From assembly GCF_026151205.1 (NCBI RefSeq), contig NC_087081.1, positions 989,386 through 1,049,385 on the forward strand: a stretch of 60,000 nt of DNA. The letters run 5' to 3'. The stretch is from Bolinopsis microptera (lineage: Eukaryota > Ctenophora > Tentaculata > Lobata > Bolinopsidae). Below the pieces are notes generated by a model. The model worked only from the letters and a program-made list of their open reading frames with translations, did not search any database and had not been told where the DNA came from. The position numbers and the translations under genes were made by a program. Below, one piece after another: positions 26,603 to 54,600 of this stretch (position 1 is the first letter of the stretch; each line of letters starts with the position of its first letter).

Positions 26603-27492
26603 ATGTATGTACTACGGCTTTACCTAATTATTAAAGATCTGGGCTTCACTGTCAACCCCAGAAGAAGCAGGAGATACCCAGCAGTTAAGGTGACAGATGT
26701 CGACTTTGCTGACGATTTTGCACTGACAACAGACACCGCAGAGCAAGCGCAAGATCTTCTCCTCAGTTTGGAGCTGGCTGCTAACTGAAACTCCGTTGGA
26801 CTTCACCTCAACGAGAGTAAGACGAAGTACATCAGAGTCAATCTCTCTGAGTCTGACTCTACCGTCATTAATTATTTAAAGCAGCAAGTGGGCAGGAGAT
26901 AGGGCAAGTAGATGAATTTGTCTACCTTGGAAGCAGAATAATGAGTGCGGAGAAGGACTTTGATGTTAGGAAAGCAAAGGCATGGGGGGGGGGGGGGGGG
27001 GGGGGGGCTGTCATCAGTTAAAGACAATCTGGAATGCGCAGGGACTTAATGATCCGTGTCTTTCGAGCAACGGTTGAGTCCGTACTCCTGTACGGCTCTG
27101 AAGCTTGGAGGATAAGCCAATCCATGACTAAGCGGATCAATGGATGCTACACTAAAATGCTCCGGATGGCCTTGAACATACGTTGGCCACAAATCATCAA
27201 CAACAGTGATTTATACGGCAACATCCCCAAGCCATCAGTGATGATAGCCTCCAGAAGAATGAGACTGGCTGGACATGTAGCCAGGCATGACGACCTTCTG
27301 GCAAACCAACTTCTGTTCTGCCTCTGGGACCCTCAGCATGGATACAGGAGACCGGGGAGGCCCCACCTCACGTTTCTGGACATGCTAAAGAAGGACACCA
27401 GCCTTTCCTGTGTTGACGAGATAAGATCTGTTATGCTTGACCGCGACGTGTGGCGAGGAATTATAGCTGCTCGGACCAAGAAGCCGACTTAA
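26603..27492 (+). pseudogene. Degenerate LINE reverse transcriptase C-terminal fragment
   Basis: The first open segment (26603-26788) contains VDFADDFALTTD, the catalytic F/YxDD motif of reverse transcriptases, followed by a stop. A middle part in another frame reads DEFVYLGSRIMS, the usual downstream LINE motif. The segment 27034-27492 contains ESVLLYGSEAWRI and a conserved tail with GHVARHDD and RRPGRPHLTFLDML. A run of about 23 G residues at 26985-27007 interrupts it. The endonuclease and most of the polymerase are missing, so this is a dead 3' fragment of a non-LTR element. Confidence 0.82.
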
Positions 27493-28128: not shown

Positions 28129-31067
28129 TAGTACAGGGAAATCCGTCTGAAAAAATCGATCTGCTGACACACGAAGCTTTCAGAGGATTTTTGACGTTTT
28201 TGAGTTCCATTAGGTGCCCTTTATGGCTGACCAACTTTTCCAAACTTTTCCACGTGGCTTAAGGCCACTTTTTGCCACTTTACCACTTTTTACCACCTTT
28301 CTTGTTTGTCGAATATCTTTAGTTGTGAACATCGTAAAAGGTTGCGAATCAATCGAGTGTGTTCATATTATCAGGAAGAAAAACTTTTGTTCTAACAATT
28401 TTTACGTCAGATAATAAGTTAATTGGATAATTATCAATTAACCAATTAGCAAAATTCTAAAAATTTTTTATTGGCTAAAAATGATCGAAATAGCTTAAAA
28501 CACGGAGAAAAGTAGTTTTTAGAAAAAATTTGAAAATTTTTCACTTACATTTTTTTTTCGAGACTTCGAAAAATTTCGAAAATTCAAAATATTTTTTCCG
28601 CCAAAAGTGATCAAATTGCATGAAACGCGGAGGAAAATGATTTTCAAAAAAAACTTAGTCAATTTTTCGTTTCAAGAATACTTAAATCACCAATATTTGT
28701 AGTTGGAGTTTAGTAAATCTCGGCAGATTTTAGTAATAATCAGGAATTACTAACTCTAAGTGGAAAGGTCTGAAACTGAAAAACGTTAAGTTTAACCATA
28801 CGATCGTGATATAAGAGTTTCATGACTAATTACAATACAGCCTTATCGATTTTCACAGAAACTGCACCAATGGCACAGTCAAGATCGAAACGATAGCCTG
28901 CTGTACTGTCATTTTATTGATTTCAATGATGAATCAGTGGGGTTAAGATTTGTAATAAATAAAACCTCTCTGTACCGTCAATTGTGCTAATCTAAACCGG
29001 CCTACCTGTATTACCAGACCTCTTCTTTTCCTCAACAATCAAACCGAGTTGTTCATATCGCATTTGGTGGGTGATGTAAACTAAGTAGTAATACATATCG
29101 AGCTATATTCAATCACAATACGACACAATGCAACACGTGTATATTATATTATGGCCCTTAATGAGGTATATGAAATGTTCTATACCGTACACTTCTCGTT
29201 TCTCCCGTGAGAGGCCCGATATGGAGAGGTTTTACATTTTATCACGAAAATGTCTACTTGGTCTCATGGCTCTTTGACAGCTCAAAGAAGGCAAGAAAAA
29301 CCAAAAAGCTTAGAATGTCAACTCGCAAGAGCGGGCTATCGGACAACTGAACCCAATTTAGACATTTAGATTAACCCTAACTCTAACCCTAACCCTAACC
29401 CTAACCCTAACCCTAACCCTAACCAATTAAGCTGATTGGTTAGTGGGAACTAGGTTCAATTGGGTTCAGTTGTCAGTCTTCGATCTGTCCCACATTAATC
29501 CCGAGCTGATCATCATGGGCCCCGAATATCCTGCGGGAAGAACCTGTATTTTTACTTCACGACGTCCGGATTTCAAATCAACATCCTCAATAACATTAAC
29601 AATCCTTCCTGATCAGGATCTGTCTCTATTAGCAATTTCCAGAATATCCTGACTCTCGTGGAACAAGTCACTGAATTAATTATTACCGGTTCTTTACTAC
29701 CCCTTGCCCGACACTGTACTCGTATCTAAATCTTACCCTTTCCCGTATGTTACCCTTGTTGATTTTACTTTTAGCCGACCGTGACATATGGGGGTGATTT
29801 GAGGTATCCCGCAAATGAAGCGGTATGCAGTACAATACAAAACAGTTACAGTAGATGTTGGAAGGTGTATTTACACTTGCTTCCTGGACCTGGCTGTTCC
29901 TCAGTTTCCCTGATCTGTTCTTGCCCTTCTTCGAACTGTAAATGGGCCATGAGACCAAGTAGACGTTTTCGTGATAAACTGTAAAACCTCTCTATACCGG
30001 ATTTCTCACGGTATAAAGCGTTTCATAAACCTCATTAAGAGCCATATAATATACACGTACTGTGTCGTATTGTGATTGAATATAGCTCGATATGTATTAC
30101 TACTTAGTTTACATCACCCACCAAATGCGATATGAACAACTCGGTTTGATTGTTGAGGAAAAGAAGAGGTCTGGTAATACAGGTAGGCCGGTTTAGATTA
30201 GCACAATTGACGGTACAGAGAGGTTTTATTTATTACAAATGTGATTATCTTAACCCCACTGATTCATCATTGAAATCAATAAAATAACAGTACAGCAGGC
30301 TATCGTTTCGATCTTGACTGTGCCATTGGTGCAGTTTCTGTGAAAATCGATAAGGCTGTATTGTAATTAGTCATGAAACTCTTATATCACGATCGTATGG
30401 TTAAACTTAACGTTTTTCAGTTTCAGACCTTTCCACTTAGAGTTAGTAATTCCTGATTATTACTAAAATCTGCCGAGATTTACTAAACTCCAACTACAAA
30501 TATTGGTGATTTAAGTATTCTTGAAACGAAAAATTGACTAAGTTTTTTTTGAAAATCATTTTCCTCCGCGTTTCATGCAATTTGATCACTTTTGGCGGAA
30601 AAAATATTTTGAATTTTCGAAATTTTTCGAAGTCTCGAAAAAAAAATGTAAGTGAAAAATTTTCAAATTTTTTCTAAAAACTACTTTTCTCCGTGTTTTA
30701 AGCTATTCCGACCATTTTTAGCCAATAAAAAATTTTTAGAATTTTGCTAATTGGTTAATTGATAATTATCCAATTAACTTATTATCTGACGTAAAAATTG
30801 TTAGAACAAAAGTTTTTCTTCCTGATAATATGAACACACTCGATTGATTCGCAACCTTTTACGATGTTCACAACTAAAGATATTCGACAAACAAGAAAGG
30901 TGGTAAAAAGTGGTAAAGTGGCAAAAAGTGGCCTTAAGCCACGTGGAAAAGTTTGGAAAAGTTGGTCAGCCACAAAGGGCAACTAATGGGACTCAAAAAC
31001 GTCAAAAATCCTCTGAAAGCTTCGTGTGTCAGCAGATCGATTTTTTCAGACGGATTTCCCTGTACTA
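28129..31067. mobile_element. 2.9-kb palindromic foldback element
   Basis: The two halves are reverse complements. For example the GTACAGGGAAATCCGTCTG end at 28131 matches CAGACGGATTTCCCTGTAC at 31047-31065, and the ATCAAACCGAGTTGTTCATA region near 29037 matches its complement near 30140-30160. Arms are about 1.15 kb with few mismatches, around a diverged core of about 600 bp. The ends lie next to TA on both sides (TA-GTACAGGG and CCCTGTAC-TA), which would fit a TA-targeting element, but a two-base duplication is weak evidence. ORFs in the arms are mirror-image artefacts. Sub-motifs AAACCTCTCTGTACCG and AAACCTCTCTATACCG inside resemble pogo/Tigger-type termini, so the structure may be composite. 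Confidence 0.8.
29341..29475. repeat. Telomere-like CCCTAA repeats bracketed by a short inverted repeat
   Basis: About eight CCCTAA-type units (one variant) occupy roughly 29373-29424. They are flanked by GACAACTGAACCCAATT at about 29342 and its exact reverse complement AATTGGGTTCAGTTGTC ending at 29475. The block sits in the core of the large palindrome, so it is an interstitial rather than a terminal array. Confidence 0.85.
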
Positions 31068-35700: not shown

Positions 35701-37417
35701 TGTGCATAATATAATATAAAATGTGCATAATATAATATGTAATTCAGTAAACCCTCTCTTCCCCACAAATTGATAACAAGTCACTAGATTTAATATTCAC
35801 CGAGGATTGAGATAAGAGGAATATGAGAGATAAGGGCGAGTGTGTGTTACACAGCCATTCGTCTCCCTGCGGAATAAAAACAATAAGTCATCCAACATAC
35901 CCCATATCATTATGTAATTGTATAATATGTCATCCAACATACCCCATATTATTATGTAATTGTATTGACATTTTTCACTTTAACTTGCAACGGGCGATAG
36001 TCACAAATTTCACAATTGTAGCGCACAGCACACAATTAAATTGCTGCACACGCTTACTTAAAACAACTGTTGTCCAAAAATGTACAGAAGGGGGGGGGGG
36101 GGGGGAGGAAATATAAATATACCCCACCTGTTCTGTTGCGGAAATGAAGGATAGATCGAGGGAAGGAATGAGGGGGGGGGAGGGGGGAATATAAATATAC
36201 CCCACCTGTTCTGTTGCGGAAATGAAGGATAGATCGAGGGAAGGAATGAGGGGGGGGGGAGGGAATATAAATACACCCCACCTGTTCTGTTGCGGAAATG
36301 AAGGATAGATCGAGGGAAGGAACGAGGGGGGGGGGGAGGGAATATAAATATACCCCACCTGTTCTGTTGCGGAAATGAAGGATAGATCGAGGGAAGGAAC
36401 GAGGGGGGGGGGGGAGGGAATATAAATACACCCCACCTGTTCTGTTGCGGAAATGAAGGATAGATCGAGGGAAGGAATGAGGAACTGCTCCAACATTTCA
36501 ATAGCACGTGCGGAATGCGAGGATTTGTGTATTGTGTAGAGCTGGACTACAAACAACTGTACATACACTTCGTCCGATTCGACTGTAAAACGGGGGAATG
36601 TTAGGAGACATGTAAGGTTATGTGATATTATAATAATCGGATTGGCAGTGAGTTCGACCAAGATTTAAGTTATTTCCAGACGTGGTCCTCAAACATATTT
36701 ATAAACTTTTAAAAATGAATCTATATTGAATTTAGTTAGATGTAGATGTAGATGTAGATGAGATGTAGATGAGATGTAGATGTAGATGAGATGTAGATAA
36801 GATGTAGATGTAGATGAGATGTAGATGTAATGTAATGTAATGTAGATGTAGATGAGATGTAGATGAGATGTAGATGTAGATGAGATGTAGATGTAATGTA
36901 ATGTAATGTAGATGTAGATGAGATGTAGATGACTTACATGAGGTAAGTTTGATATAGTGTCGGTAGAATTTCAAGAAACACTGAAACTCTGAGTCTACTC
37001 TGTCCAGATCAATATTTGATAGGAATCCTCCAAGACAGGAAAGGAGGTACACCACAAACCTGAAATAATAATTAACTGATTAATTAATTTACTGATTATT
37101 TTACTAACCTGAACGTACATTTTTCATTCATATTATATTAGCGACATAATATTGAGCATAATATTTGAAGAGAAATATATACGGAAAGTACAAATTTTCA
37201 AAAACATATAGTGAAGAACATAAAACATCATAATATTATTATAATATGAAAGGGAAATCAGAAACATAGGTTTGTGATTTACCGTTTTCTAAGATCAGGA
37301 GGTGGTATGCTGAGAGATTGATCACCCGACTGTTCAAACACCCATTCTATCACCTTGTTGCTGTACACTTCTTTTGAACCTGTTGGTTGTGTAGAGTTAT
37401 GTGCGGAGTGATGGATA
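32732..37417 (-). CDS. SMG6: SMG6 (EST1A) 3' half: middle domain and PIN endonuclease
   Basis: Predicted exons in transcript order: 37283-37417, 36938-37059, 36437-36582, 35527-35628, 35131-35278, 34679-34926, 34302-34498, 33990-34125, 33668-33835, 33113-33212, 32732-32877 (TGA at 32732-32734). Every junction is GT-AG with matching phase. The product runs through the helical EST1 middle domain (VEEH-type loops, LRKRFVVYLLSCLGGFLSN), an acidic linker (LSDEDSGSDLEIIS) and a C-terminal PIN nuclease. The PIN domain keeps the three acidic motifs of SMG6: YIIPDTNCFLD, SNDDLIL and VFLTDDSNLRVKA. These Asp residues coordinate metal, so the enzyme should be active. SMG6 cuts mRNAs near premature stop codons in nonsense-mediated decay. 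It continues in the exon block 48612-55249. One small exon between the blocks was not found. Confidence 0.9.
36085..36480. repeat. Five tandem units duplicating a SMG6 exon end with its splice donor
   Basis: Units of about 75-79 bp, each containing the complement of CATTTCCGCAACAGAACAG-GTGGGG, occur with donors near 36125, 36203, 36279, 36356 and 36435. They differ mainly in the length of a G run (C on the transcribed strand). The unit spans the last 40 bases of a SMG6 exon and the first bases of the intron, so five equivalent donors lie in a row. All three minus frames stay open across the array. Confidence 0.88.
36735..36935. repeat. GATGTAGAT-type minisatellite in a SMG6 intron
   Basis: Mixed tandem units of TAGATG and TAGATGAGATG, with two TAATG-containing higher-order blocks at about 36828-36845 and 36893-36912. 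The array stops just before the exon at 36938-37059. ORFs reading through it are repeat translations. Confidence 0.9.
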
Positions 37418-37617
37418 CTGCAATAATATGATATTATTATGAATCAATAACCAGTGATTGGTTACCAGCTAACATATTTGGGATTCTTTGAGTTTTTTAA
37501 AGCAAGAATTTGTAAGATCTGGCTGACCTCTATTCTTGAAATTTGTGCGTTTTTACCGCCCAAAGAGGGATATACTTTGAAATTGCATTCCAGTCAGAAT
37601 ATTGGAATTAGCTGGGG

Positions 37618-38258
37618 GAGTAGGTATGTGGGACTACACTACAAGCAGTGGGACTACACTACAAGTATTGGGACTACTCTACAAGCAGTGGGACTACACT
37701 ACAAGCAGTGGGACTGCACTACAAGCAGTGGGACTACTCTACAAGCAGTGGGACTACACTACAAGTAGTGGGACTACACTACAAGTAGTGGGACTACACT
37801 ACAAGTAGTGGGACTACACTACAAGCAGTGGGACTACACTACAAGTAGTGGGACTACACTACAAGTAGTGGGACTACACTACAAGTAGTGGGACTACACT
37901 ACAAGCAGTGGGACTACACTACAAGTACTGGGACTACACTACAAAGCTACAAGTACTGGGACTGCACTACAAGTAGTGGGACTACACTACAAGTAGTGGG
38001 ACTACACTACAAGTAGTGGGAATACACTACAAGCAGTGGGACTACACTACAAGTAGAGGGACTACACTACAAGTAGTGGGACTATACTACAAGCAGTGGG
38101 ACTACACTACAAGCAGTGGGACTACACTACAAGCAGTGGGACTGCACTACAAGTAGTGGGACTACACTACAAGCAGTGGGACTACACTACAAGTAGTGGG
38201 ACTACACTACAAGCAGTGGGACTACACTACAAGTAGTGGGACTACACTACAAGTGTGA
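37618..38258. repeat. 20-bp satellite, about 32 units
   Basis: GGGACTACACTACAAGTAGT and close variants (AGCAGT, AGTATT, CTGCACT) repeat with a strict 20-bp period, with one irregularity near 37940-37955. There are no spacers, so this is not a CRISPR-type array. It lies in the long SMG6 intron about 200 bp upstream, in transcript direction, of exon 37283-37417. Confidence 0.95.
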
Positions 38259-38800
38259 TATCGTAAAACGATCCGATCCTTTATCCACGACCTGTATTAC
38301 AAGCCATAAATAATAAATATTCAAAGTTTAATCGTGGTTTTAGTGTGCTAAGAGATGTAGACTCAAGCTTCTCACTTACCATTGAGCTGCCCAGTTTTTT
38401 ATAGCAACAATAGATATTCAAAGCATTTCTAATAGATGAGACTCAATTCTCTCACAAACCATTGCGAATCGAATCGTTACACTTACAGAACAATGACATT
38501 ATTGTAAAAGGGCACCGTGATATATAATATCTAACACAAGTTAAACCCTGCAGACTACAACTTTGGTTATCTATAACACCAGGAGGGGTCAAGGAACTGG
38601 GTCCACGTGAGGAACAAGGATCACTTCTACGAGGATCCTCTTCTTTTAGTTCAGTACTATTCGGGGGGTTTTCTTTTGTTTAACAAGACCGTCTTGGTTC
38701 AAAGCTGCATTATATTTTAATTTTAGTCACTTTAAAGTAGTTTTAAAACCAGTAAAATCAGTATCATCGTTTAATGGGGAGGGGGTGACATGTCCGCCAA

Positions 38801-39145
38801 AATTTCAATTTTGCTTCTCTCGACCTTGTTTGGTCTGTAACTTCGTCATTTATTGTTAAATTATAAAATCCTTTGAAGGGCTTCTTGTACGGATTGTGAA
38901 TAATGTTCAGTAAACAAATCTGCCTAAAAACGTTTAAAATGACTGAAATACCGGTATTACAGTGATACAGACTTCTCAAAATTTCCAAAACTTTCGAAAA
39001 AGAAAATATTTATTTTTTCGAAAGTGAGTGCTCTCAAAAGTAATTTGTAATGTATTAAATCTAATTGTTTTTATGTATACTTTAATAATATGAAGTCAAA
39101 TCTCGGGTCCCGGCATAAAAGGTTTTGATATATGTCCCCTTAATT
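38801..39145. repeat. Left copy of a 345-bp direct repeat flanking a receptor gene
   Basis: The sequence from AATTTCAATTTTGCTTCTCT to TATGTCCCCTTAATTA is repeated at 41122-41464 in the same orientation with only scattered differences. The pair brackets the intact receptor at 39255-40289, with about 2.0 kb between copies. Confidence 0.92.
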
Positions 39146-39254
39146 ATGGTCACAAAACATACAACTTCGATTAAGTTCGGGTTCTTCAAAAGTTACCAGT
39201 TCGGCCGCTTCCTAAGTTAATTTTATCCAGTTTAGGTTGTCATTACTAATATCT

Positions 39255-40289
39255 TTACAACTCAGTCTCAGTTTCATTGTTAGAATTTTCCATCACCCCA
39301 ACAGCATTGCTCGCTCTATTTGGGAGGATTCCAACAATCCACAACCTCATTTCCCTCATCCTCAAAACATAGAGCAGTGGGTTTAGAGAAGCGTTTAGGA
39401 CCGAACAGAATATTTCACTAATAATACTGTAGAAAGACATAAAATCGTTATTATATATTGGACCCGGGTAAGTGTTGGACACCATGGTGTAAGTGAGAAG
39501 ACAGCAGCTGATGAAACTAAAGCAATTGCAGCAGAGGAAGAGGGCAGTAAAGTAAGTAATGGTGATGGAAGCATGGTGATTTCTCTTTTGGGACACACTG
39601 TTTGCGACAGGTTCTTTCCGGAGCATAACAATCGAGACAAGAAACGTCAGAAACACATTGATTGAAGATATTCCCAAACAAGCGATCCAGCTAAACATGT
39701 AGCAGATAAACAGCAATGACGCCAACGTAGATTCCGGGGATACCTCAGGTTTTGAGGATACATCACTATAAGGTGACAGAGCGGAGGTGTAATGCATTTC
39801 GGGAACAAAAAAAATTAGAGAGTTGCAAATACAATTGTAAAGTAAATAGATAACAATGGACACAAGAACTGCTCTTTTGTTGACTTTGTAGAAAGGATAC
39901 TTTATGACAATCGCTCGTGATAACGACAGTGTCATAACCACGAATATGGACATTTCTTGAAGCAACAGAATGATGAAATTCCAAATGGAGTTGACAACTG
40001 TGTTGCTTAGTAATCCAAGAGTTCGGTTATTCAGCAGATTAAAAGCAAATGGAAGGTGAATGACGGAGGAACCTATATCGATAGAACAGGCAACTATGTA
40101 AAGAAGAGTTGACAGATTTCGTTTTTTTGTGTGGACGAAATATCTCAAAGCTAGACAGTTTCCCGGCAGTCCGATCACAAAGCAGACAAAGAACCCGAAC
40201 GCTAGCAAGCCATCATAAATTCTGTACTGAGTTTCTAGGATCGGAGTCTCATTCATCCTCAAACTTATAATCTGCGTAGCTTGAATCAA
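39255..40289 (-). CDS. Intronless class A-like seven-transmembrane receptor
   Basis: A 344-codon open frame without introns. TM1 carries the GN pair (FVIGLPGNCLALRYF). TM3 ends LSLSRAIVIKYPF, where the usual Asp-Arg-Tyr is replaced by Ser-Arg-Ala. TM6 is SITITYFTALFLCCNCFSF. TM7 ends with a canonical NPxxY motif as NASLNPLLYVLRM. There is a short basic helix and a hydrophilic tail (NSNNETETEL). N-terminal NET could be glycosylated. This is a plasma-membrane G-protein-coupled receptor of unknown ligand. It lies in the long SMG6 intron, same strand as SMG6, between two 345-bp direct repeats. The ATG at 40287-40289 is used; a second Met at residue 12 (RMNET) is an alternative start. Confidence 0.88.
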   Translation of the reverse strand: MIQATQIISLRMNETPILETQYRIYDGLLAFGFFVCFVIGLPGNCLALRYFVHTKKRNLSTLLYIVACSIDIGSSVIHLPFAFNLLNNRTLGLLSNTVVNSIWNFIILLLQEMSIFVVMTLSLSRAIVIKYPFYKVNKRAVLVSIVIYLLYNCICNSLIFFVPEMHYTSALSPYSDVSSKPEVSPESTLASLLFICYMFSWIACLGISSINVFLTFLVSIVMLRKEPVANSVSQKRNHHASITITYFTALFLCCNCFSFISCCLLTYTMVSNTYPGPIYNNDFMSFYSIISEIFCSVLNASLNPLLYVLRMREMRLWIVGILPNRASNAVGVMENSNNETETEL

Positions 40290-42437
40290 TGTATGGAAAG
40301 TTTCTCGGACTACTTTATCACAAACGTATGTTAAAGCCTTTAAGTACTGAGTAAAACTGATAATTATTTAAAGCTGTGGCTCATTGGCCCACGGTTACAT
40401 TTATTTATTTATAAGCTAAGACACCGGTAGCATAATAATTAAAAAGGGAACATAAGCCGAGTGTGCACTAATAGACCACGTGGTTACGATCTGGTCATAT
40501 TGGGCACAGAAAAAGTGTGTGCAGATGATCTAACATTAAATGCCCCTATCAAGATTCCTGAAAAAGTGCGATGAGACTGGATTTTGACCATTTGAAAGTG
40601 CGATTGTCACGTTTCACGTGCAGTGGCATCGTGGCGAAAAGTACTTATTTTTTACAAAATGATTGCATGAGCATATCCTGGGTATTAAAAGTTAGCAGGT
40701 CATTATAATAGTCAAGGATAATAACTTGTGGCTACTATATTTTCTGTAAGTTGTCTAAGTTAGACCCGTCGTATAGACAACTGCATACAAGGAACCTGGA
40801 GCTGGCTTGTTAGATGCAACTCTTGTTAGATGCAACTCTGGCAATAATTGAAAACAATTAAGACCAAAAGATCAATGACCATGAAAATCCCCGCGGCTTA
40901 AAGTTTAAAAGTGATTAGGTGTCCAGTATTGAGTATACATATATTTTTAAAACGGCCGAAAAATGTGTCATCCTTAATCCCATACCTTACTGTTCTATGC
41001 TTTGCTGATTATAATACCGAGGAATTATTAGTTCTTCATCAGCTACACTCACAAGAATTTCTGAAGCGATATCTTATGACCTGGGTGATTGGTAAAATAT
41101 AAAACTTTGATTTTTTGGATAAATTTCAATTTTGCTTCTCTCGACCTTGTTTGGTCTGTAACTTCGTCATTTATTGTTTAATTATAAAATCCTTAGAAGG
41201 GCTTTTGTACGGATTGTGAATAATGTTCAGTAAACAAGTCTGCCAAAAAACGTTTAAAATGACTGAAATATCGGTATTACAGTGACAGACTTCTCAAAAT
41301 TTCCAAAACTTTCGAAAAAGAAAATATTTATTTTTTCGAAAGTGAGTGCTCTCAAAAATAATTTTTAATGTATCAAATCTTATTGTTTTTATGTATGATT
41401 TAATAATATGAAGTCAAATCTCGGGTCCGGGCATAAAAGGTTTTGGTATATGTCCCCTTAATTAATGGGGAGCATCATGGATAAAAATTTATAAAGCATC
41501 GTTAAATGTTAGCTGACAGATAATTGGTGAAATTATACTCATCTAGTATGTTACTTTCAAGCCTTCTAGGTTACTCCTAGTGGATAAACATGGTTATCGC
41601 TTATACCTTGCAGCGCACAGTAATCCGGTAATCGTAACCTTTTACAGCTTTGACTCCAACATTCAGTTACATAATTGCAATCTTACAAGAAAATTACCTA
41701 GAACTGCGATGCCATGTACACCGTTAATCGTTATAAGTTCCTGTTCACACAAGCAAAGATTCTCGGCTCCCCCCTAGAGGGCCCTCTAATCACATAATCC
41801 TTCATAAAACAATGGACAAACAATAAGCGCTACAAGGAAATGAAATAAAAATAGAATAGCAATTTGTTAAATCTCGTGAGCAAGGCTCTCCCATTCCATA
41901 CTTCTACTATTGTCACTGTCTCTTTTAAATTTACCAGTTTGTTTGCTTTTAGTTTATCTGAGAGAAATCCAAATACCACTTGTAGGTCAAAATTTCTTCC
42001 AGCACCCATTTGCGTTGAGGACGGTTTCAGCTGTCATAAAATGTTTTTTATTACATTATTTAATATTAATGAAAGGCCATAGGTCACAGGGAGGAGGATA
42101 ATAGGGGAGGCCGACTTACAGGCCCCCTATTATTAGGGGTCCCACGGTGATCAGATCATTTCACCAATTAGTGAACAAAAATATCCGTCACAACCGAAGA
42201 TACAGCCGATTAACTCAAAACTGTAAAACATTACACATAATGTAATATGACAACAAAACCGATCAAAATGACGTTCCAACATCCTTTGCACTATGAAATT
42301 TCCTCAATTTTCTGTTCTTTCTCTGATCGCCTATTTAATCTGACATTACTAGGGGATTCAAACATAATAACATAATAAAGTGCACCATGGAAATTAACCT
42401 TCATTGCCATCTGTTTAATAGGATATAATATAAGCTG
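40290..42437. other. SMG6 intron sequence between nested genes
   Basis: No exon is recognised. It contains the right copy of the 345-bp direct repeat (41122-41464), a small duplicated TTAGATGCAACTCT near 40810-40840, and a short dispersed repeat at about 42180-42275 shared with 8040-8125. Confidence 0.5.
41122..41464. repeat. Right copy of the 345-bp direct repeat
   Basis: Near-identical to 38801-39145 in the same orientation. Differences are single substitutions and one- or two-base indels, for example CTTCTTGTACGG against CTTTTGTACGG. It marks the far boundary of the block containing the receptor gene. Confidence 0.92.
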
Positions 42438-45400
42438 ATGTTTCTATTGGTGTTCCTACAACTCATCTCTCTGACTCTAAGTGGTAAGTTATCATGGCGT
42501 TCGCTTTGATAATCTGATAAATGTATTTAAATAATTAAATCTAATAATTTAGGATAAGGAGGATACTTTGACAACAATACCACTGAGATGTCCTAGCTAA
42601 TTTTGATATCTTGAAGAACAAAATATCATTATCCTGCTATTTCAGAAACAACACAGAATAAACAGATGTTGGAGGATGAAATACGACCAGTAAATGCTGA
42701 ACAATCCAGCACCTATATGGATCAAGAGGATGTGTACGGAGCTCCCTTTGCTATAGACTTGAATCTGGGGACAACCTCTGCCACAGAAAATAGGAACGGG
42801 GAATCCTGGTTAAAAATTACCCTGGAAAAGGTATACTGCATTGAGACAGTGGTATGGTCCAATAGTGATGGCACCCCTAAGCTCGCCTGGACCTGCTCTG
42901 ATACTGACTGGTGTACCTGTGAGGGCGGAGACTGTAATGACTACTCACTAGAAGTCACTACAATTGATGTGTATGAAGCAGCGGACAACTCTAAGTTTGA
43001 CACTTCTGATGTAGCGGACAACTCAGAAGAGGTCGACTTCTCTCAGTTTGACACTTCTGATGTAGCGGACAACTCTGAAGAGGTCGACTTTTCTCAGTTT
43101 GAAACTTCTGATGTAGCGGACAACTCAGAAGAGGTCGACTTCTCTCAGTTTGACACTTCTGATGTAGCGGACAACTCTGAAGAGGTCGACTTTTCTCAGT
43201 TTGAAACTTCTGATGTAGCGGACAACTCTGAAGAGGTCGACTTCTCTCAGTTTGACATTTCTGATGTAGCGGACAACTCCGAAGACGTCGACTTCTCTCA
43301 GTTTGACATTTCTGATGTAGCGGACAACTCCGAAGACGTCGACTTTTCTCAGTTTGACACTTCTGATGTAGCGGACAACTCCGAAGAGGTCGACTTCTCT
43401 CAGTTTGACATTTCTGATGTAGCGGACAACTCCGAAGACGTCGACTTTTCTCAGTTTGAAACTTCTGATGTAGCGGACAACTCCGAAGACGTCGACTTTT
43501 CTCAGTTTGAAACTTCTGATGTAGCGGACAACTCAGAAGACGTCGACTTCTCTCAGTTTGACACTTCTGATGTACTTTTCCCAACATCAGACAACATGCC
43601 TCCTGAAACTATGGGTGCAGCATCGGACAACTACCATCCTGAAACTATGGGTGCAGCATCGGACAACATCCCTCTTGAAACTATGGGTGCAGCATCGGAC
43701 AACTACCACCCTGAAACTATGGGTGCAGCATCGGACAACTACCATCCTGAAACTATGGGTGCAGCATCGGACAACTACCATCCTGAAACTATGGGTGCAG
43801 CATCGGAAAAATACCATCCTGAAACTATGGGTGCAGCATCGGACAACTACCATCCTGAAACTATGGGTGCAGCATCGGACAACATCCCTCTTGGCTCTGA
43901 CTGTACTAAAGGAAATACCGTGAAACTAACGAGACATACTGGTTCGATCGAAGTGAGCGAGATAGCGATAATTGAAAGGAAAGAAAATGTGAAAAAAGGT
44001 GATCCTCAAACTTCGGAAAATTGGAACTTTATTTTAAATACTTGTATCATTTGATGGAGTATGTAACTTTTCCATAATGATTAAATGCCATCTTTGAAAA
44101 GTTCAAAATAAGATTATCAAGTTATTACCTAAATACACATACCATAACACATTTCAGACAACGAAGAGGAAACAAGAGATTGGCGTGACTTCTCGCTGAG
44201 TGACAGGCTTAACCTAGCAGTCAACATGGAAGAAGATGAAACATACTACGTCAGATTCCCTTGCTCCGACTCCATCCGGTTCAAACTCTTCCTGTATTCT
44301 GAAGATGAACAGAACTCCCACATTGTGCTCTCCAGTAAAACTAACGGTAACATTTACTGTAACAAAGCTGGGTTGCAGAACTGGTACGGTGGAGAAGTAA
44401 CACATTTCAACATCAACAAAGAGTGGGAGTGCGAGGATGATGGACAGTTCATGGTTGTGGAGTAAGATACAAATTGTTACTAACGACTAAATTCATGAAC
44501 TATCGTCAATCAAACGTAGATTGTGTTTTACATTACCATGCAACTGATAACCGCTTATAAAATTGAAAGTCGAATATGAATGCTTTACACATAAAAACAT
44601 GGAAAATATTTTAGGGTGGAAAAAACAAACGATCACGTTGAAATAACGAACAGAGGAAACACCCTGTACAAGAAAACATTCGGCTCCGGAGATGGGAACT
44701 GTTACAAGAGAACCGACAGAATTATTACCCAAGTTTGGAACTATGAAGGTTCCCTGTCACTTGCTTTTTCTTCCACAGAAGGTCCGTATACTCTGTCTAT
44801 GGTAAATCTTGAAGTAAATTTTGTGATCCTCATTTCTTGTTCCAATCTTATAATTCTTTTGTTCACAAAGTATAACAATAGGTATTAACTTACTTTATGT
44901 TTGATTCTATGTGGCTTTTACTTAAATAGCCAATTTTCAGCTAATGATGTAGCTGCAGATACAGTCTGTTTAGATGGGGAGATCGCTTTGGACAAGTCTC
45001 CGCCGTGCACCAAAATAGGTACAGTTTTAAATTTAACTTTAATTTAACTTATAAATAAATTTTTTTAAAGAGTTTAAATGTGCTAAGAACTGTTTCTAAA
45101 ACACGATTGAAAAATTCCTTGCATATTAATAACGATTAAAGATGATTAGTAATTGAGCTGTTAATGACAGTTTATTACCTCATTTTATATTCTGAATCTG
45201 TCAATCTGATGATTAATTATACTAAATTATGACACACAAGACCAGAACACAACTCGACCAACAGAAAGACATGACCAAGACATGAAAGAAGCACTGGGCC
45301 AGTGTTTCTTTCACGAGTAACAGTAATTTTCGCATTCCGATTTTGGCGGTTTTTTTTTCAACGAATGTCAAAACGAATAAAAAACGTTTTTAAATTTTTA

Positions 45401-45904
45401 CAATGGCAGAATTTCGAACGAAATGGTGAAATGAGGAGAAATTGTTCGCTGTTATTATTTATTTTAAATTATCGAATTGACTGTAACCGTGATAATGAAC
45501 CAATATATAACTTGTTTTAATAAATTAACCCCGTACTGTTCCCGTTTATAAATCCCGCTTTGAAACCCTCAACATGCAAATATCATGGTGGTCGCTGCGA
45601 CAGTGGCAGGTGATGATTAAGACGATATAGAATCAAACTGCTGGCTTTCATCATAGACTGGAAAAGCTACACTCCACCTACACTAGGAGAATATTCATTT
45701 AAGGTACTAATTAATTGTGAAATTAATTACGTTCTCAGCATAAGCTAAGATACCTGAAACACTCGTTTTCTAATTGATTGAACGAATTGTAGTATTCTTT
45801 ATAGTTAACTTATGTAGTAGTTTTAACTTAATTACAACTGTTCTTCAGATGCCGACCCTCCGACCACCCAGCGATTCACATTCTATACCTCGGCCTCCAG
45901 CTAA
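42438..45904 (+). CDS. Secreted multidomain protein with acidic tandem repeats
   Basis: Predicted exons: 42438-42483, 42646-43998, 44158-44461, 44615-44781, 44941-45018, 45849-45904 (TAA), about 667 residues, all GT-AG with matching phases. Exon 1 encodes a signal peptide (MFLLVFLQLISLTLS). Next is a discoidin-like region (about residues 25-115) with the pattern of a fold-anchoring Trp and a Cys-rich loop (CSDTDWCTCEGGDC). Then come eleven copies of a 17-residue unit (DVADNSEEVDFSQFDTS) and eight copies of a 12-residue unit (DNYHPETMGAAS). A closing CTKGNTVKLTRHTGSIEVSE strand resembles the end of the discoidin-like fold, so the repeats appear inserted in that domain. Two further Cys-containing segments follow. 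It is probably an extracellular matrix or mucus protein; the function is unknown. It lies in a SMG6 intron on the opposite strand. Confidence 0.78.
43008..43568 (+). repeat. Coding 51-bp tandem repeat, 11 units
   Basis: Each 51-bp unit encodes DVADNSE(E/D)VDFSQF(D/E)(T/I)S. Variant residues are confined to the same three positions, and neighbouring units share variants, which indicates spread by unequal exchange. The period is a multiple of three, so copy-number change keeps the frame. Confidence 0.97.
43590..43890 (+). repeat. Coding 36-bp tandem repeat, 8 units
   Basis: Each unit encodes a variant of DNYHPETMGAAS (also DNMPPET, DNIPLET, EKYHPET). The unit is unrelated to the preceding 51-bp unit, so two independent arrays expanded side by side in the same exon. 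Confidence 0.96.
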
Positions 45905-46182
45905 TCATTTTACGCTTAAATCATAACCTGACTGTTACCTCAATTCTATTTAGAGGGTTAGCTACTAAAAAACAGATTTTAACCCACGTGATTAACTAAT
46001 CACCAATAAGGTTTAAGATATGTGTTCACGTGACAATGGGATCACCAGCTTTCCTTTACAATGGCAGGAAATACTGAACGTCATTGTTTCATTACCAGTT
46101 TTTTAACAGCGCATTTGTTAGAGCATCCTTCTATTGACTAGCTTGAATCTTTTAAACATGCACACAGATAACGATACGCAAT
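45905..46182. other. Spacer between nested genes
   Basis: No features are recognised beyond the presumed 3' flank of the secreted protein gene and the 5' flank of the receptor pseudogene. Confidence 0.45.
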
Positions 46183-46335
46183 ATGAAATCAACAATGATG
46201 CGGTCCATTTTCATATTGTGTAACCTCATGATTCTTCTAGCGTCGCTCATAGGGGACAGTATCATCTTAATATCGACCATTAAGTACAATGCTATCAATC
46301 TCAACAAGGTCATGATAACTGTAATGAAGCACATG

Positions 46336-46615
46336 GTTACCTGGTTACCTGGTTACCTGGTTACCTGGTTACCTGGTTACCTGGTTACCTGGTTACCTGG
46401 TTACCTGGTTACCTGGTTACCTGGCTACCTGGTTACCTGGTTACCTGGTTACCTGGTTACCTGGTTACCTGGTTACCTGGTTACCTGGTTACCTGGTTAC
46501 CTGGTTACCTGGTTACCTGGTTACCTGGTTACCTGGTTACCTGGTTACCTGGTTACCTGGTTACCTGGTTACCTGGTTACCTGGTTACCTGGTTACCTGG
46601 TTACCTGGTTACATG
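46336..46615 (+). repeat. GTTACCTG octanucleotide array, 35 units
   Basis: Exactly 280 bp = 35 units of GTTACCTG, with one GCTACCTG variant and a final GTTACATG. It separates ATG 46333 from ATG 46613, both followed by sequence fitting the same receptor helix. Because 280 leaves remainder 1 after division by 3, it shifts the frame; unit counts divisible by three would not. It ends without AG, so it is not an intron. Confidence 0.95.
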
Positions 46616-47028
46616 GCTGTTTGTGACTTGATTCAAACTCTATTTAAAGTTTTCCCCATCACTTTTGCATTCATCGCAGATCGGTGGGTGATGTGTCATG
46701 TTCAGTACAATATCAGCTGGGTCTGTAGTCCTGTGACCGTGTTCCTGACAACTGCCATGACCACTCTCAAGCTGATACTGGTAAAGTACCCTCTGAGAAC
46801 CTGTGCATGGTCCACAAAGTTAGGGCACAGAATTAGTAGTGCAGCGTGGGTCCTGGCACTTGGTTGGTACACTCCAATGTTAGCAGGTATAATGTTCTAC
46901 ATCAGAGACACAATACACTTCAGTTACCAGTCTTATAGTTGCAACTATGATCTCCGCTCACCCGTCCTCCCTACCTGGTACACTCGGTACTTTCTTATCA
47001 GCATGGCTGTCCTCAGCCTCCTTTCCTA

Positions 47029-47190
47029 CACCACACCACACCACACTACACCACACCACACCACACCACACCACACCACACCACACCACACCACACCACA
47101 CCACACCACACCACACCACACCACACCACACCACACCACACCACACCACACCACACCACACCACACTCCTCAGCCTCCTTTCCTACACCA
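47029..47190 (+). repeat. ACCAC pentanucleotide array with duplicated flanks
   Basis: CCTCAGCCTCCTTTCCTACA is found at 47011 and again at 47168, 157 bp apart, with ACCAC-type repeats between. The duplicated flank shows that the array grew from a local duplication within the TM5 codons. 157 leaves remainder 1 after division by three, so it shifts the frame again. Confidence 0.93.
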
Positions 47191-47288
47191 TCATCGCTCT
47201 TACATCACTCCTTCTCCTGATCGTGGCTAGAAGGGTTGCCTCTCATCACAGAGAAACACTAAGATGGGAGGGTGTTATCACAGTGCTG

Positions 47289-47964
47289 CTAACAGTGGGG
47301 GTCTTGTTTATATCTCTCTTGCCGTATGGTGTGGTGGCTGCTAACGGTGGGGGTCTTGTTTATATCTCTCTTGCCGTATGGTGTGGTGGCTGCTAACGGT
47401 GGGGGTCTTGTTTATATCTCTCTTGCCGTATGGTGTGGTGGCTGCTAACGGTGGGGGTCTTGTTTATATCTCTCTTGCCGTATGGTGTGGTGGCTGCTAA
47501 CGGTGGGGGTCTTGTTTATATCTCTCTTGCCGTATGGTGTGGTGGCTGCTAACAGTGGGAGTCTTGTTTATATCTCTCTTGCCGTATGGTGTGGTGGCTG
47601 CTAACGGTGGGGGTCTTGTTTATATCTCTCTTGCCGTATGGTGTGGTGGCTGCTAACAGTGGGGATCTTGTTTATATCTCTCTTGCCGTATGGTGTGGTG
47701 GCTGCTAACGGTGGGGGTCTTGTTTATATCTCTCTTGCCGTATGGTGTGGTGGCTGCTAACAGTGGGGATCTTGTTTATATCTCTCTTGCCGTATGGTGT
47801 GGTGGCTGCTAACGGTGGGGGTCTTGTTTATATCTCTCTTGCCGTATGGTGTGGTGGCTGCTAACAGTGGGGGTCTTGTTTATATCTCTCTTGCCGTATG
47901 GTGTGGTGGCTGCTAACAGTGGGGGTCTTGTTTATATCTCTCTTGCCGTATGGTGTGACATCTA
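47289..47964 (+). repeat. 52-bp minisatellite of the TM6 segment, 13 units
   Basis: CTAACGGTGGGGGTCTTGTT and the following bases through TATGGTGTGGTGGCTG repeat every 52 bp from 47289 to 47913 (13 starts). Variants alternate AACAG and AACGG, and GGGGGTC, GGGGATC or GGGAGTC. Each unit shifts frame by one base, and one frame meets TGC-TAA, so the array introduces stops. The twelve extra units total 624 bp, a multiple of three. Confidence 0.95.
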
Positions 47965-48281
47965 CGTTTGGGGTACAATACACTGGCACCACACGCCGTG
48001 CTATAGGTCAACTCACCAACTTGAATATAGTGGCTAACTTCTTTGTTTACTCCATCACTGTCCAAAGTTTTAGACGTTTTCTGAGGAAAAAGATATCTTA
48101 CCTCCTCTTCTCGATGGGACTCAGCACAGAAAAAAGACAAATTCACCATCTAAGACCTCATCAAATACCACAACCCCCTAAAAGACAAAGACCAAAGCAG
48201 GCATCCTCTCCAGTAGAAGAATATCCAGAAGTACACAGTGACGATACCATAAATTCAGTAATAGAACTTCAACAACTGTAG

Positions 48282-48611
48282 TTTACGAGAAGATATGGTT
48301 CAATAATTTGATAAATAATGATGTAATTGAAACTACGGTGCTTGATTTTTTAAATTTTTAAAAGTTTTTACGTGCGTGTTTTTAATTATCACCGATTTAA
48401 AATTAAAACTACATAATAAATTATGTACAAGAAAGTAGTTTTAATCCGTAGTATGTAATTATATTTATTAGTTATTTGGGGCGGAGTTTGGTTTAGGGAG
48501 CAGAAAAAGGGTAAGAATTCATATAATTATAAGCAATGTATACGTGTTCAGTGTTTACCAATAAGTCAACATATTTTGTCAATTTTAAAGATATAATTGT
48601 TTCTCTGTTAC
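48282..48611. other. SMG6 intron sequence
   Basis: AT-rich sequence between the end of the receptor pseudogene and a SMG6 exon. No other signal is seen. Confidence 0.5.
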
Positions 48612-51600
48612 CTGGCAGGATTTGGTTTCTCTTGCTCCTATCCTCATCTCTTCTTTGAAGGAGGAGAGCTTTCCTTCGCAACTCTGCTAACACAGCCAAC
48701 AACAACTCTCTGAGAAAAAAAATAGCTTACAATACGTAAAATAAACGATAATAGAACTAAAAACCTTGAAAAGATTAATTCCAGTGACACAATTAATCGC
48801 GGCGTGTGTGGAACCAGTAACCAGTAACCACTAGCCAGTAACCACTAGCCAGTAACCAGTAACCAGTAACCACTAGCCAGTAACCAGTAACCAGTAACCA
48901 GTAACCACTAGTCAGTAGTCAGTAACCAGTAACCAGTAACCAGTAACCAGTAACCAGTAACCAGTAACCAGTAACCACTAGCCAGTAACCAGTAACCAGT
49001 AACCAGTAACCACTAGCCAGTAACCAGTAACCAGTAACCAGTAACCAGTAACCAGTAACCAGTAACCAGTAACCAGTAACACTCACTTGGACTGTGAGAA
49101 AGGGTTTCTGACGAGCAAGGAGAGGGTAAAGTAATAGACAGCGTGGAGTCGTCTGTGTGCGTATTTTCCTAACAGTGCTAGCTGGGTGTGGGGAAACGGT
49201 TAATTAGTCAATTTACTAGCTAATTATAATTAATTGACTAGCTGATAATAATTAGTTAAATGAAGTCAGTCAATTAATTGGTTGCTATTAAAACCTGGTG
49301 ATATGGGCGAGGGTTCCTGGGAGCTAAGGTCTGAGCAAGCAGGTAATAGTTTCTAGCTTGTCCCCACTCGTCAGTATCTCGTGTTTGCGACAAATACCTG
49401 GGAAAGTAAAAGTGAAAGTGAAAGTGAAAAAATTGTTTATAGATAAAAACTTTAATGGGGTTTTGGTATTTGGATTATTATGCTTCATTTGTTTAGTGCC
49501 CAGGAATATATCTAGATCCCAATAATTTAAATATTTAGATCTAATAATATTCCTTCTTTTTTTGAGAAAGATCAACTTGATTTGAAACCTTTAAGGGGGC
49601 CGGGGGGGGGGGGGTCTTCATCAAAATTATCTCGAAATTGATTTTACGGTATAGTTGTTTCTGATAGAGGGGAGTGATATCATTCAGCTGCTTTTGGTCC
49701 CATGGAAAAATATTGTTCCTAGCCAAAATTATCGCCAGTCAAAGGTCAGCGCTTATGTGTAATTGTATTGCGCGAGCGATTTTCAATCGCGCGCCCTGAA
49801 AATCGAGTCTAAAAATCTATCTTCTCCTACATTTTTTGAGCAATCACCCTGAAACTTTCAGAATATGTTCTAGGAATCATTTAGAAGATATCTGTCGAGC
49901 CGAATTTTTAGATAGGCCTTAGAAGTTTTTTTATTCGATTTTGAAAATCTTGGACCTGGAAAAATCGTCAAAAAATGAGGTCCAAGATTTTCAAAATTGA
50001 ATAAAATTTTTTCTAAGGCCTATCTCAAAATTCGGCTCGACAGATATCTTCTAAATGATCCTTAGAACATATCCTGAAAGTTTCAGGATGATTGCTCAAA
50101 AAATGTAGGAGAAGATAGATTTTTAGACTCGATTTTCAGGGCACGCGATTGAAAATCGCTCGCGCAATACAATTACACATAAGCGCTGACCTTTGACTGG
50201 CGATAATTTTGGCTAGGAACAATATTTTTCCATGGGACCAAAAGCAGCTGAATGATATCACTCCCCTCTATCAGAAACAACTATAAAATCAATTTCGAGA
50301 TAATTTTGATGAAGACCCCGGCCCCCCCCCCCCCGGCCCCCTTAATTCACTCACTCTATATCAATGTCACATACAACACTTTAGTATATAATTTGCTATT
50401 AAACAAGAAATGACGGATCAGTCCCAGAATTGGTAAAACGTTTGTCAACATGCTCTTGTCACCTGTATAAGTCTCCGATCCAAAGGAAGAGTTTATGAAG
50501 GAGTAGGAGAGCCAAGACCTGACTTCTATTGTGTCCGGTCGTGTGGTGCTTGTAATTCACCTTGTACCTGTTAATTGAGTAATTAGCTACTAATTAGTTA
50601 ATTAAATTAGTTTCTAATTGACAAATAATGAATTTATAATTACCTAGTATAATTAATGACAGTATGATGTTCGGCATTTACTAGAGCAAGGACAAAAATA
50701 ACGCCAAGTAAAATCTCTTAAATGATGGAGTTCTTAACTAAACATTTCTAAAAATGCAAATTTTACTAATTACGCAACTTGCACAGATTTTACTATTATG
50801 CACCGACACCGCCCGTCCGACATGGACAGATGTTTACTAGGATGATATTTTGTATATTCGTAGAATGATACAATGAAAAGTTAAAATCCAAAATACAGCC
50901 AAACTAAACCAGTGACATCATCAAAGTTTTCCTCTCAAGATGTTGGTAATCTGCGTAACTGCATCAAATATTGGTGTTCAACAAATCACATGATGAGCAA
51001 GGCATACCTAATATCATAACAAGCACCGGGCCCTTTTCTCCAGCATTCTTTGGATTTTAGTTCCTGTGATAGATCAAATTTCGGAAGTATCCAGTCTGTG
51101 ATCTACTAAACACAATGTTTTCAGATTATTCTCTCTCTGTGCGGTAGTAATTTTCTGTTGAATTGCAAGAGATTCTCTGTGGAGATGCAAAACGGAAGTA
51201 ATCTCATCATAATACCGTTATATCACGTGGTGTCCGCGCCTCCGCGGTGATAAAATTTTAAATTGAGCTGATGACACATTTTTTTGTATTTTTCATCCCC
51301 CAAAAGATTGAAATATTTTGTTGGTTTTAGTTGCGTGTCTAATATTTTGTTGTACTAGATCTCTCTAACTCTCTCTTCAAGTCAGCTGTCAGATGGAAGA
51401 GTATTCCTCGATGAGTAACTCAACAAATCAGCTAGGACAGAATATCTATGTTGAGTATCTAAAGAAAGCTTTTATATCTGTCGTCCCGTTCAACATTCCT
51501 TTGTGCATCTTGGTACTAGCTGTCTGTACCACTGTCCTATCCTACTATTGGAGAAACCCTGCTACCCTCACCAACACCCTTTTTATCATGATAACGGCAT

Positions 51601-54600
51601 TTGATTTGATCACGTGTGTTGGTCACCTGATATTAATGGTATTTGTTGTGCTGATGTCACGTGACATTATAGCACCAGGCTATGTCTTGGTATGTGTGGT
51701 GATACATACCGCACTGTCACTACTCGGCTACGCCTCATCTGTCTTCTTTAACATGGTGCTCGCTGTTTTGAGGACGGTTAAAATATCCTTCCCTTTCCAT
51801 CAGGTCGACGTTGGAGGTCTAAAGATTGCAATGGGTCTTGTGATCGGTTTCTTAGTTTCATTGTCTGTAGTGGATATCTGGGAGGACATTGACAATACAT
51901 TTTATGATGACTTCCTGCCATGGATTTTCCTATGGGACAATGTAGTTGTTGCTTTTGTAGGCCATAACATGTCGGATTGGTTCACCTATGATTTTAATAT
52001 TCCCTTCAAGTCACGGATTTGTCAAGATTTACTGGTAGGATTGCTGTATCTAGTTCCGATTTGTGTTGTTCTGGTTTGCCTCGTGATACAGTTTTTAGTC
52101 ACACGGCTCAGAGCACGTGCACGTGACCCTGATCAACCACTGGTCACTAACTGGTCACATGTGAACACCACAGTCTCGCTCCTTTCCGCTGTTTTCCTGT
52201 TCTGTAACTCAGGAATAGCAATCCTACAGCTATACTACAGAGGTGTATGGGCCAGAATTGACAATTCATTTGCAATGTCAGTCTGCTCATTGATGGTAAG
52301 CACGACACTACCACTACTAAACGCACTTCTGACACCGCTCATCATAATAACCAGAAGTAGGGAACTGAGAGGGAATGTTATCATGATGATAAGGAGAGCT
52401 GTGAGGGCCACTCCGGCACTGAACTGACAAAGGAAATCTCGGAATGATACATTTCGATTTTTTTACACGATTGGAAAATTTATTTGTTATATTGGAATAA
52501 TAACAATTTCAAAATATAAAATAAATTACTTCCCTCTGAAGTAGAATAGATGATGAGAGAGCTTCAAACATGGCGATGGAGGGAAGCGGTATCTCACCGC
52601 AGGGAGGTAAATTAATACCTGTATCGTGATGGTAATGTTTCCATTAAACAATGATCATGTGACAAAACTAAGGGCTATCTTTACAGTAGTTGCGGCATCA
52701 CAATTACAATTACTAGGACATTCCATCCCGTATATACTTCTAACTTGATTTTGAACTATTACCGTATTTGGTGAAGTGTGTTTCATCACAGGAGTATAAC
52801 ACAATAATGTGGAATCACAATTGCAAGTTATAAGGACATTCCGTTCAAGATTTGAAATTGATTTTGAAGTTCGATTTAGTGAAGCATGTTATAACAATGT
52901 TTGATAATATCATATTATATACGTAATAATGATAATATTTAAAATTAAAGGAGTTAAGGGGGCATACCCCAAAACAGTGGTTTGTGCCGTCCAGACCAAA
53001 TGACCTCATAGGCAGTTCAGTGACCTTCTAGCGCACCGTTTCCACACCAAACAAAATTATTTTGAGAATACCCATTTTTGTAATCAAGCTTTTCCTGGTT
53101 AAGAGTGCAATTTTCGGAAAAAATTATTTTGTGGTTGAGACGCTATAAGTTAATCATTTCTTGCGGTATCAGGTTGAAATTTTGCTCGCCGTTTATTCAC
53201 ATCTATGTCAAGGTGTGTGTAAAATCTTGATATCGTATCTAAAAAGGCTGGTGTGTTATGAATTTTTAAAGTCAAAAAGCTAAAATTGTCCTTTTCAGGC
53301 TTATTTTAACAAAAAGTCAGTCAGGGAAGATCGGATTATTTGATGCTTGACATCAAATTGTTCTCTGAATTCTGGCGCAGTTTTTGATGCCCTCAAAAAT
53401 GTTTTTACTCATTCACCTTCTGATCTATTGGACCTCAAAGCCAAACAACAAATTTAGGCACATTTTTCGTTTTTAATATTTACTGATTTTTCTAAAATTT
53501 TGATAGGAATGTGCTAGTGACTTTTTGAAGGGTGCAAAATAACCGCAACTAGCACATTTATATATGAGTTATGAACAACAAAACACCCTAGAATGCTTCC
53601 CTTTGAAGTTATGGGAGAAAATGTGATTTTTTTGGCTTTGCAGATAATAAATCACATTTTCTCCCATAACTTCAAAGGGAAGCATTCTAGGATGTTTTGT
53701 TGTTCATAACTCATATATATAAATGTGCTAGTTGCGGTTATTTTGCACCCTTCAAAAAGTCACTAGCACATTCCTATCAAAATTTTAGAAAAATCAGTAA
53801 ATATTAAAAACGAAAAATGTGCCTAAATTTGTTGTTTGGCTTTGAGGTCCAATAGATCAGAAGGTGAATGAGTAAAAACATTTTTGAGGGCATCAAAAAC
53901 TGCGCCAGAATTCAGAGAACAATTTGATGTCAAGCATCAAATAATCCGATCTTCCCTGACTGACTTTTTGTTAAAATAAGCCTGAAAAGGACAATTTTAG
54001 CTTTTTGACTTTAAAAATTCATAACACACCAGCCTTTTTAGATACGATATCAAGATTTTACACACACCTTGACATAGATGTGAATAAACGGCGAGCAAAA
54101 TTTCAACCCGATACCGCAAGAAATGATTAACTTATAGCGTCTCAACCACAAAATAATTTTTTCCGAAAATTGCACTCTTAACCAGGAAATGCTCGATTAC
54201 AAAAATGGGAATTCTCAAAACAATTTTTTTTGGTGTGGAAACGGTGCCCTAGAAGGTCCCTGAACTGCCTATGAGGTCATTTGGTCTGGACAGATTTGGG
54301 GTATGCCCCCTTAAGACCCTTAGTCATTGACGGCCAACAGAGTCTGATTAGTGATCCGGGGCTTGCAAATCGACCAGTGGCCCAAAATTTGTATCTTGAT
54401 TTTAAGAAGTTTTGCTTCACGTCTTCATCATTTAAATTAGTTTGATTTTGGAAAAAAACAGTATTATTGAATTAATGATAACCCCTTTTATTATGCACAA
54501 AATGCGTTTTATATAATTTTAATTTGAACTGAACGTTTTATTGAGAACTGATCGCACAAATATGTTAAATATGTCTGAACAGGCACGTGGTTTAACGAAA

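Follow-up and report, generated by a model that had tools for sequence, protein, structure and literature searches.

A single-exon receptor gene of the ctenophore Bolinopsis microptera, interrupted by three long tandem arrays, is very probably a young pseudogene. Its coding sequence has suffered a 5-bp frame-breaking deletion, frame shifts from the first two arrays, stop codons within the third, and a further deletion of 12 bp. The gene lies in the window, by which we mean the whole stretch of 60,000 nucleotides that was analysed (C10:989386-1049385). The genome searched comprises 264.65 Mb in 232 contigs, with C1-C13 measuring 15-26 Mb each and summing to 258.07 Mb. The parts of the gene and its surroundings, in window positions, are as follows.

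46158..46199, + strand: N-terminal region of the family, beginning at ATG 46158 (DNA alignment with seven relatives, and translation)
46183..46332, + strand: TM1 piece, in the frame of ATG 46183 (frames, and alignment with relatives)
46199..46200, + strand: point at which 5 bp are missing, which breaks the frame (DNA alignment with seven relatives)
46334..46616, + strand: array 1, octamer TGGTTACC, 35.4 copies (Tandem Repeats Finder)
46613..47029, + strand: TM2-TM5 piece (frames, and alignment with relatives)
46693..46694, + strand: point at which 12 bp (four residues) are missing ahead of the TM3 cysteine (alignment with relatives)
47010..47033, + strand: left copy of a 24-bp gene segment beside array 2 (sequence; a 22-bp core is present twice)
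47028..47166, + strand: array 2, unit ACACC (period 5), 27.8 copies (Tandem Repeats Finder)
47167..47190, + strand: right copy of the same 24-bp segment (sequence; a 22-bp core is present twice)
47169..47336, + strand: piece from the end of TM5 to TM6, extending into the first 52-bp unit (frames)
47285..47957, + strand: array 3, 52-bp unit from the gene's own TM6 codons, 12.9 copies (Tandem Repeats Finder)
47910..48278, + strand: TM6-TM7 and tail, with the stop codon at 48279-48281 (frames)
36095..49080, no strand: stretch dense in arrays, with every one of the window's nine long arrays (array count)

The receptor frame stays open in the segments between the arrays and closes with the terminal stop at 48281. 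The first-pass annotation had placed the start of the gene at ATG 46183; the receptor frame read from there is real, but the start codon of the family aligns at 46158. The two ATGs are out of frame with each other because 5 bp are absent in between. From 46158 the frame runs for 21 codons before a stop, and reading from 46183 terminates at 46626, directly 3' of array 1. The downstream ATG could bypass the 5-bp deletion, a point that counts against the pseudogene reading.

The three arrays, with periods of 8, 5 and 52 bp, had been noticed from the letters alone and are borne out at match levels of 97-98%. Measured between gene sequence, array 1 adds 280 bp (35 x 8) and array 2 adds 157 bp including the flank copy, neither a multiple of three. 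Arrays 1 and 2 are free of stops in every frame, and with units of 8 and 5 bp their length sets the reading frame. Array 3 adds 624 bp (twelve further 52-bp units), which is a multiple of three; its units traverse all frames and place 4, 4 and 5 stops in the three of them. Relative to functional members of the family, then, the frame is broken by the deletion, by the shifts from arrays 1 and 2 and by the stops of array 3, and this allele probably yields no full receptor. The units are nearly uniform, with 33 of 35 octamers identical in array 1 and 25 of 26 pentamers in array 2. Array 1 contains no AG dinucleotide and has ACATGG at both edges. Array 3 has ordered internal variants with a flank-like variant at either edge, where the units still match the single-copy flank at one base that is gone from most interior units.

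The receptor pieces can be aligned with 21 relatives, TM1-TM7 being assigned purely by that alignment. The earlier description of a clear TM1 to TM7 is right only in part: four residues preceding the TM3 cysteine, kept in all 21 relatives, are absent from this copy. The third extracellular loop (ECL3) is also short, as it likewise is in one relative (L015). Seven of 61 family-invariant columns are changed, one of them at the frameshift site; when each of the 21 relatives was left out in turn, the same test gave 0-4 changes in 51-66 columns. Standing above every one of the relatives in this way appears to be a sign of relaxed constraint, although looser cut-offs are less clear, ranking this copy fourth worst (90% conservation) or fifth worst (80%) of 22. 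Among eight close copies, changes private to one of them were compared by codon position, and the rate at positions 1+2 relative to position 3 was 0.318 in the window copy, against 0.353-0.927 in the seven others. The low ratio implies that most of its divergence arose under constraint, and therefore that the pseudogene is young; part of the decay may thus postdate the arrays. The first-pass annotation judged the receptor well conserved and the expansions recent, in keeping with both this ratio and the near-uniform array units. It had set against its own reading the case of a decayed pseudogene with other lesions; two extra deletions were indeed found, but a long decay was not, given the constraint in the codon positions.

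We call the family class-A-like, single-exon and large. The window's receptor pieces gave no Pfam match; in a scan of six relatives for Pfam 7tm_1, L022 scored 71.1 bits (cut-off 30.5), L032 scored 28.1 and the other four had no match, and the term class-A-like is used because one of the six exceeds the cut-off and one falls slightly below it. Scans of the 60-kb window against Rfam (at gathering thresholds) and for tRNAs found no match. The TM2-TM5 piece has at least 150 matches in the genome, all with E <= 4e-9 (150 of 387 candidates were scored), and the best 70 of the 150, namely the window copy (L009) and 69 others (L010-L078), served as the family sample. Counting from the first Met, a frame of 300 aa or more was our measure of full length, and 46 of the 69 other loci have one; L031, full length at 377 aa, falls outside the 46 only through the choice of match, and L071 was excluded from the disabled set, its fetched sequence having ended within the locus. 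The remaining 21 of 69, a set in which introns were not excluded, lack a full-length frame through frameshifts, stops, insertions or missing ends, or are slightly shorter than 300 aa (such as L014, L038 and L064). Disabled copies are common in this family.

Arrays within receptors are a different matter. None of at least 100 bp lies inside the matched receptor span of any of the 21 disabled copies, some of which carry arrays outside it, and the 21 aligned relatives have no array in the receptor core. Of the 46 frames of full length, four overlap an array by at least 60 bp: L048 and L049 (unit 18), L076 (unit 30) and L054, whose 20-bp unit is present in 3.2 degenerate copies, so that non-triplet units also occur outside broken copies. 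Two nearly identical full-length receptors lie in opposite orientation about 58 kb apart, at C7:15330426-15330854 (-) and C7:15271836-15272264 (+). Within the window, two single-frame proteins at 39255-40367 (-) and 51369-52427 (+) have, by eye, the look of seven-helix receptors and give no Pfam match.

The arrays of the receptor do not stand by themselves. Nine long arrays (at least 130 bp and at least 3 copies) of unrelated units fall within about 13 kb, and none occurs in the other 46.9 kb of the window. The background, taken from 69 other receptor loci, is 26 long arrays in 232,464 bp (1.12 per 10 kb), a total in which a few kb are counted twice where loci overlap. On this density the Poisson P is 2.3e-5 for nine in 13.1 kb and about 2.5e-4 for three or more in the roughly 1 kb of one gene, values that are guides only because the density comes from receptor loci, the stretch was picked after viewing and arrays are non-independent. 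The suggestion that the locus is prone to repeat growth is thus upheld by an array-dense stretch. Three arrays in one short gene had also been thought far from random; the small probability agrees, but their independence does not survive, since they are part of a regional cluster.

Several other features of the window deserve mention. A neighbouring frame at 42615-44054 (479 aa) stays open despite arrays with units of 51 and 36 bp, both multiples of three, which it reads as in-frame 17- and 12-residue repeats; it has no Pfam match, and the segment preceding the repeats has what we take to be a discoidin- or lectin-like look. At 48812-49080 there is a 7-bp array, AACCAGT, whose opposite strand is one base short of the octamer TGGTTACC. 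Genome searches with two 7-mer patterns gave 1 and 13 matches, the 13 at 9 loci, the second pattern being one that misses the window's own 7-bp array. A telomere-like hexamer, (TAACCC)8.8, lies inside the chromosome at 29372-29424. Frames at 20387-23513 carry JmjN, ARID and JmjC domains, presumably the set of JARID2-like genes, and a frame at 27022-27492 resembles, by eye, the end of a non-LTR retrotransposon protein.

The three units are distributed very differently over the genome. A 35-mer of array 3, searched with up to three mismatches, has 13 genome matches, all inside this gene. The boundary pattern of ACACC arrays has 14 matches at ten loci including the window's, and its backward control has 21; the unit therefore says little on specificity, since the control matches as often as the pattern. 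Four exact units of the octamer, by comparison, have 3,818 genome matches against 0 for the backward control. Its boundary pattern has 109 matches, and the 100 of these that were listed fall at 55 loci including the window array; the exact-unit search adds more loci on C1 and C2. Two different octamers, likewise taken from arrays in this assembly, gave 2 matches at 2 loci and 9 matches at 8 loci. Judged by the matches listed, 24 of the 55 loci lie within 1 Mb of a chromosome end against 5.5 expected, an enrichment calculated for the octamer only; the window array, at 1.036 Mb, is slightly beyond that limit. By its unit, with 33 of 35 identical, array 1 belongs to the dispersed set. Reading of seven sampled contig ends, 500 bp each, showed neither a telomere-like nor an octamer array. 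An explanation of the octamer by the ctenophore loop-anchor motif was considered and rejected, the motif being described as GC-rich with two CpGs, which are absent from the octamer (PMC12221973). The open-licence literature yielded no study on tandem repeats or satellites of Bolinopsis or of ctenophores.

Among the first 12 octamer loci (L079-L090) no element body is shared beside the arrays, except that L080 and L081 have sequence in common outside their arrays and are a segmental duplicate. The flanks have a different property. From 22 octamer loci (L079-L090, L098-L107) six arrays, including four whole loci, were dropped because the flank was too short, leaving 21 arrays at 18 loci, and an array was called positive when its left and right flanks shared a direct repeat with a local score of at least 14. 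Fifteen of the 21 have such a repeat, of 15-68 bp and mostly abutting the array, and 6 have none; with inverted flanks as the control, one of 21 is positive. Examples of identity are 35/36, 40/45 and 55/56. The weakest is L107, where the repeat is just 15 bp, lies 30 bp off the array on one side and falls in flank that is itself repetitive. For pairs of different loci the 99th percentile of the flank score is 13.4 and the maximum 49, which we assume stems from the duplicate pair L080/L081. If that pair is taken as one locus, 12 of 17 independent loci score positive, or 12 of 18 with the window copy. Only 2 of 25 non-octamer arrays (the window's ACACC array and L062), scored under slightly different settings, are positive (Fisher P 1.0e-5 by array, 1.3e-4 by locus), as are 84 of 1,500 random 140-bp segments of receptor loci. 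At L087 the order is flank-array-flank-array-flank over part of the length, and "flank plus array" therefore also grows as one unit. In some loci, L083 and L102 among them, the last bases of the flank read on into the octamer, as expected from microhomology.

Taken together, these patterns suggest how the gene may have been lost and its arrays gained. A copy in the family would have lost function. In a gene free of selection, arrays whose units are not multiples of three could be maintained, and the stretch around it, roughly 1 Mb into the contig, seems prone to array-forming events. Arrays 2 and 3 are, on the sequence, best read as local duplications that later grew. They probably began as small duplications of the kind produced by fill-in and rejoining of staggered breaks, and would then have been enlarged by slippage or unequal exchange. 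Array 1 may have grown from the local ACATGG or may have been copied from the dispersed TGGTTACC family, the latter being somewhat more likely.

The first-pass annotation held that all three arrays, octamer included, were seeded by the gene's own codons and grew in place. For array 3 the claim stands, its unit being found only here; for array 2, with a 24-bp segment on both sides, it is plausible; for array 1 it is doubtful, as the octamer occurs elsewhere. Growth of the whole trio in place is a real, if minority, possibility in our estimation. The edge ACATGG is one base from the ACCTGG of the unit, with the interior units carrying the derived base, and array 1 has no flank duplication of at least 15 bp: its best score is 8.5, away from the array, and the repeat at its edges, ACATGG, is 6 bp. 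The lack of a long duplication speaks against full membership of array 1 in the octamer set, while ACATGG at both edges fits either origin. Against growth in place is the presence of octamer arrays at no fewer than 54 other loci, compared with 2 and 8 loci for the two other octamers. A broader proposal, which we put forward tentatively and hold to be possible rather than probable, is that the octamer spreads as arrays, favouring the vicinity of chromosome ends and sometimes entering genes, through break repair or copying-in, and that this process leaves up to about 70 bp of target sequence duplicated on either side of the array. It would be a satellite that moves like an element but has no element body; array 1 would count among these insertions, its duplication being very short, and array 2, by its flank-array-flank form, would indicate that other short units can take the same route.

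Other accounts concern the state of the gene itself. It had been proposed that the gene is switched by repeat length across individuals; in such a scheme the number of units would vary between individuals or cells and the frame would turn the receptor on or off, as in coding contingency loci. The stop-free arrays 1 and 2, whose 8- and 5-bp units let length set the frame, and the near identity of units, as in unstable arrays, are what such a switch would lead one to expect. However, a change in repeat number is insufficient to restore a gene in which every frame of array 3 contains stops and the 5- and 12-bp deletions lie outside the arrays; all 21 aligned relatives, moreover, are without such arrays in the receptor core. 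We regard a switch as very improbable. Array lengths in assemblies can be wrong, and one could suppose that the assembler inserted or lengthened the arrays. This too is very improbable, in view of the ordered internal variants of array 3 with a flank-like variant at both edges, and of the diverged flank duplications at other octamer loci. In addition, the published Bolinopsis microptera assembly, for which n = 13 is given, used PacBio data (PMC10232365).

The arrays might instead be spliced out as introns, leaving a working gene. Insertion between direct repeats is one route to new introns, but array 1, having no AG, has no standard splice acceptor, for which reason its splicing was rejected, and the 5-bp and 12-bp deletions would persist after splicing; the chance of this is close to nil. 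An unlikely but far weightier alternative is that the sequenced haplotype carries a broken allele while other animals have a working copy. The loss is recent, and the assembly represents one haplotype with the locus in single copy: a genome search with the receptor returned one match at 100% and 22 others at no more than 77%, and a second copy was not found; no observation made here speaks against this alternative. A young pseudogene is the reading that we prefer.

A dying receptor copy is in itself ordinary, and the possible importance of this one lies in what it may tell about how arrays are born. One gene appears to hold three such births: the 52-bp array is a grown local duplication, the 5-bp array lies between flanks that are duplicated, and the octamer array belongs to a dispersed family. 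Should orthologous sites that lack an array show a single flank copy in a near relative, the birth of dispersed satellite arrays would become readable at dozens of loci.

Large chemoreceptor-like GPCR families are known for pseudogenes and birth-and-death evolution. The present gene resembles these pseudogenes in being one of many copies, many of them disabled, and in its recent loss with frameshifts and deletions. It differs in that its main lesions are three long arrays, a condition seen in 0 of the 21 other disabled or short copies. Minisatellites and coding VNTRs offer a second parallel, array 3 being a grown local duplication whose edge units are nearest to the flank sequence; unlike them, units of 8, 5 and 52 bp occur here in one coding region, and units of 51 and 36 bp in the open frame next to it.

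Further likenesses come from the repair of broken DNA. Telomere repeats can be inserted at double-strand breaks, and among the loci studied target duplications are reported at 6 of 130 in rodents and 4 of 25 in primates (PMC2246262). There, as here, a short unit is inserted at many places and the break sites are modified, but our unit is TGGTTACC, at most a candidate telomere repeat, and flank duplications, up to 68 bp long, are found at 15 of 21 arrays. Fill-in of staggered breaks yields small tandem duplications (PMC8355091) and would leave a copied segment to either side of a junction, the arrangement seen at array 2, though the abstract of that report describes no array between the copies. 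Finally, repair can place inserts at breaks with microhomology, filler or a target-site duplication of 4-21 nt (PMC2671141). The octamer arrays share with these events the combination of an insert and a target duplication; the inserts there are nearby chromosomal DNA, whereas here a single octamer recurs from locus to locus, between duplications that reach 68 bp.
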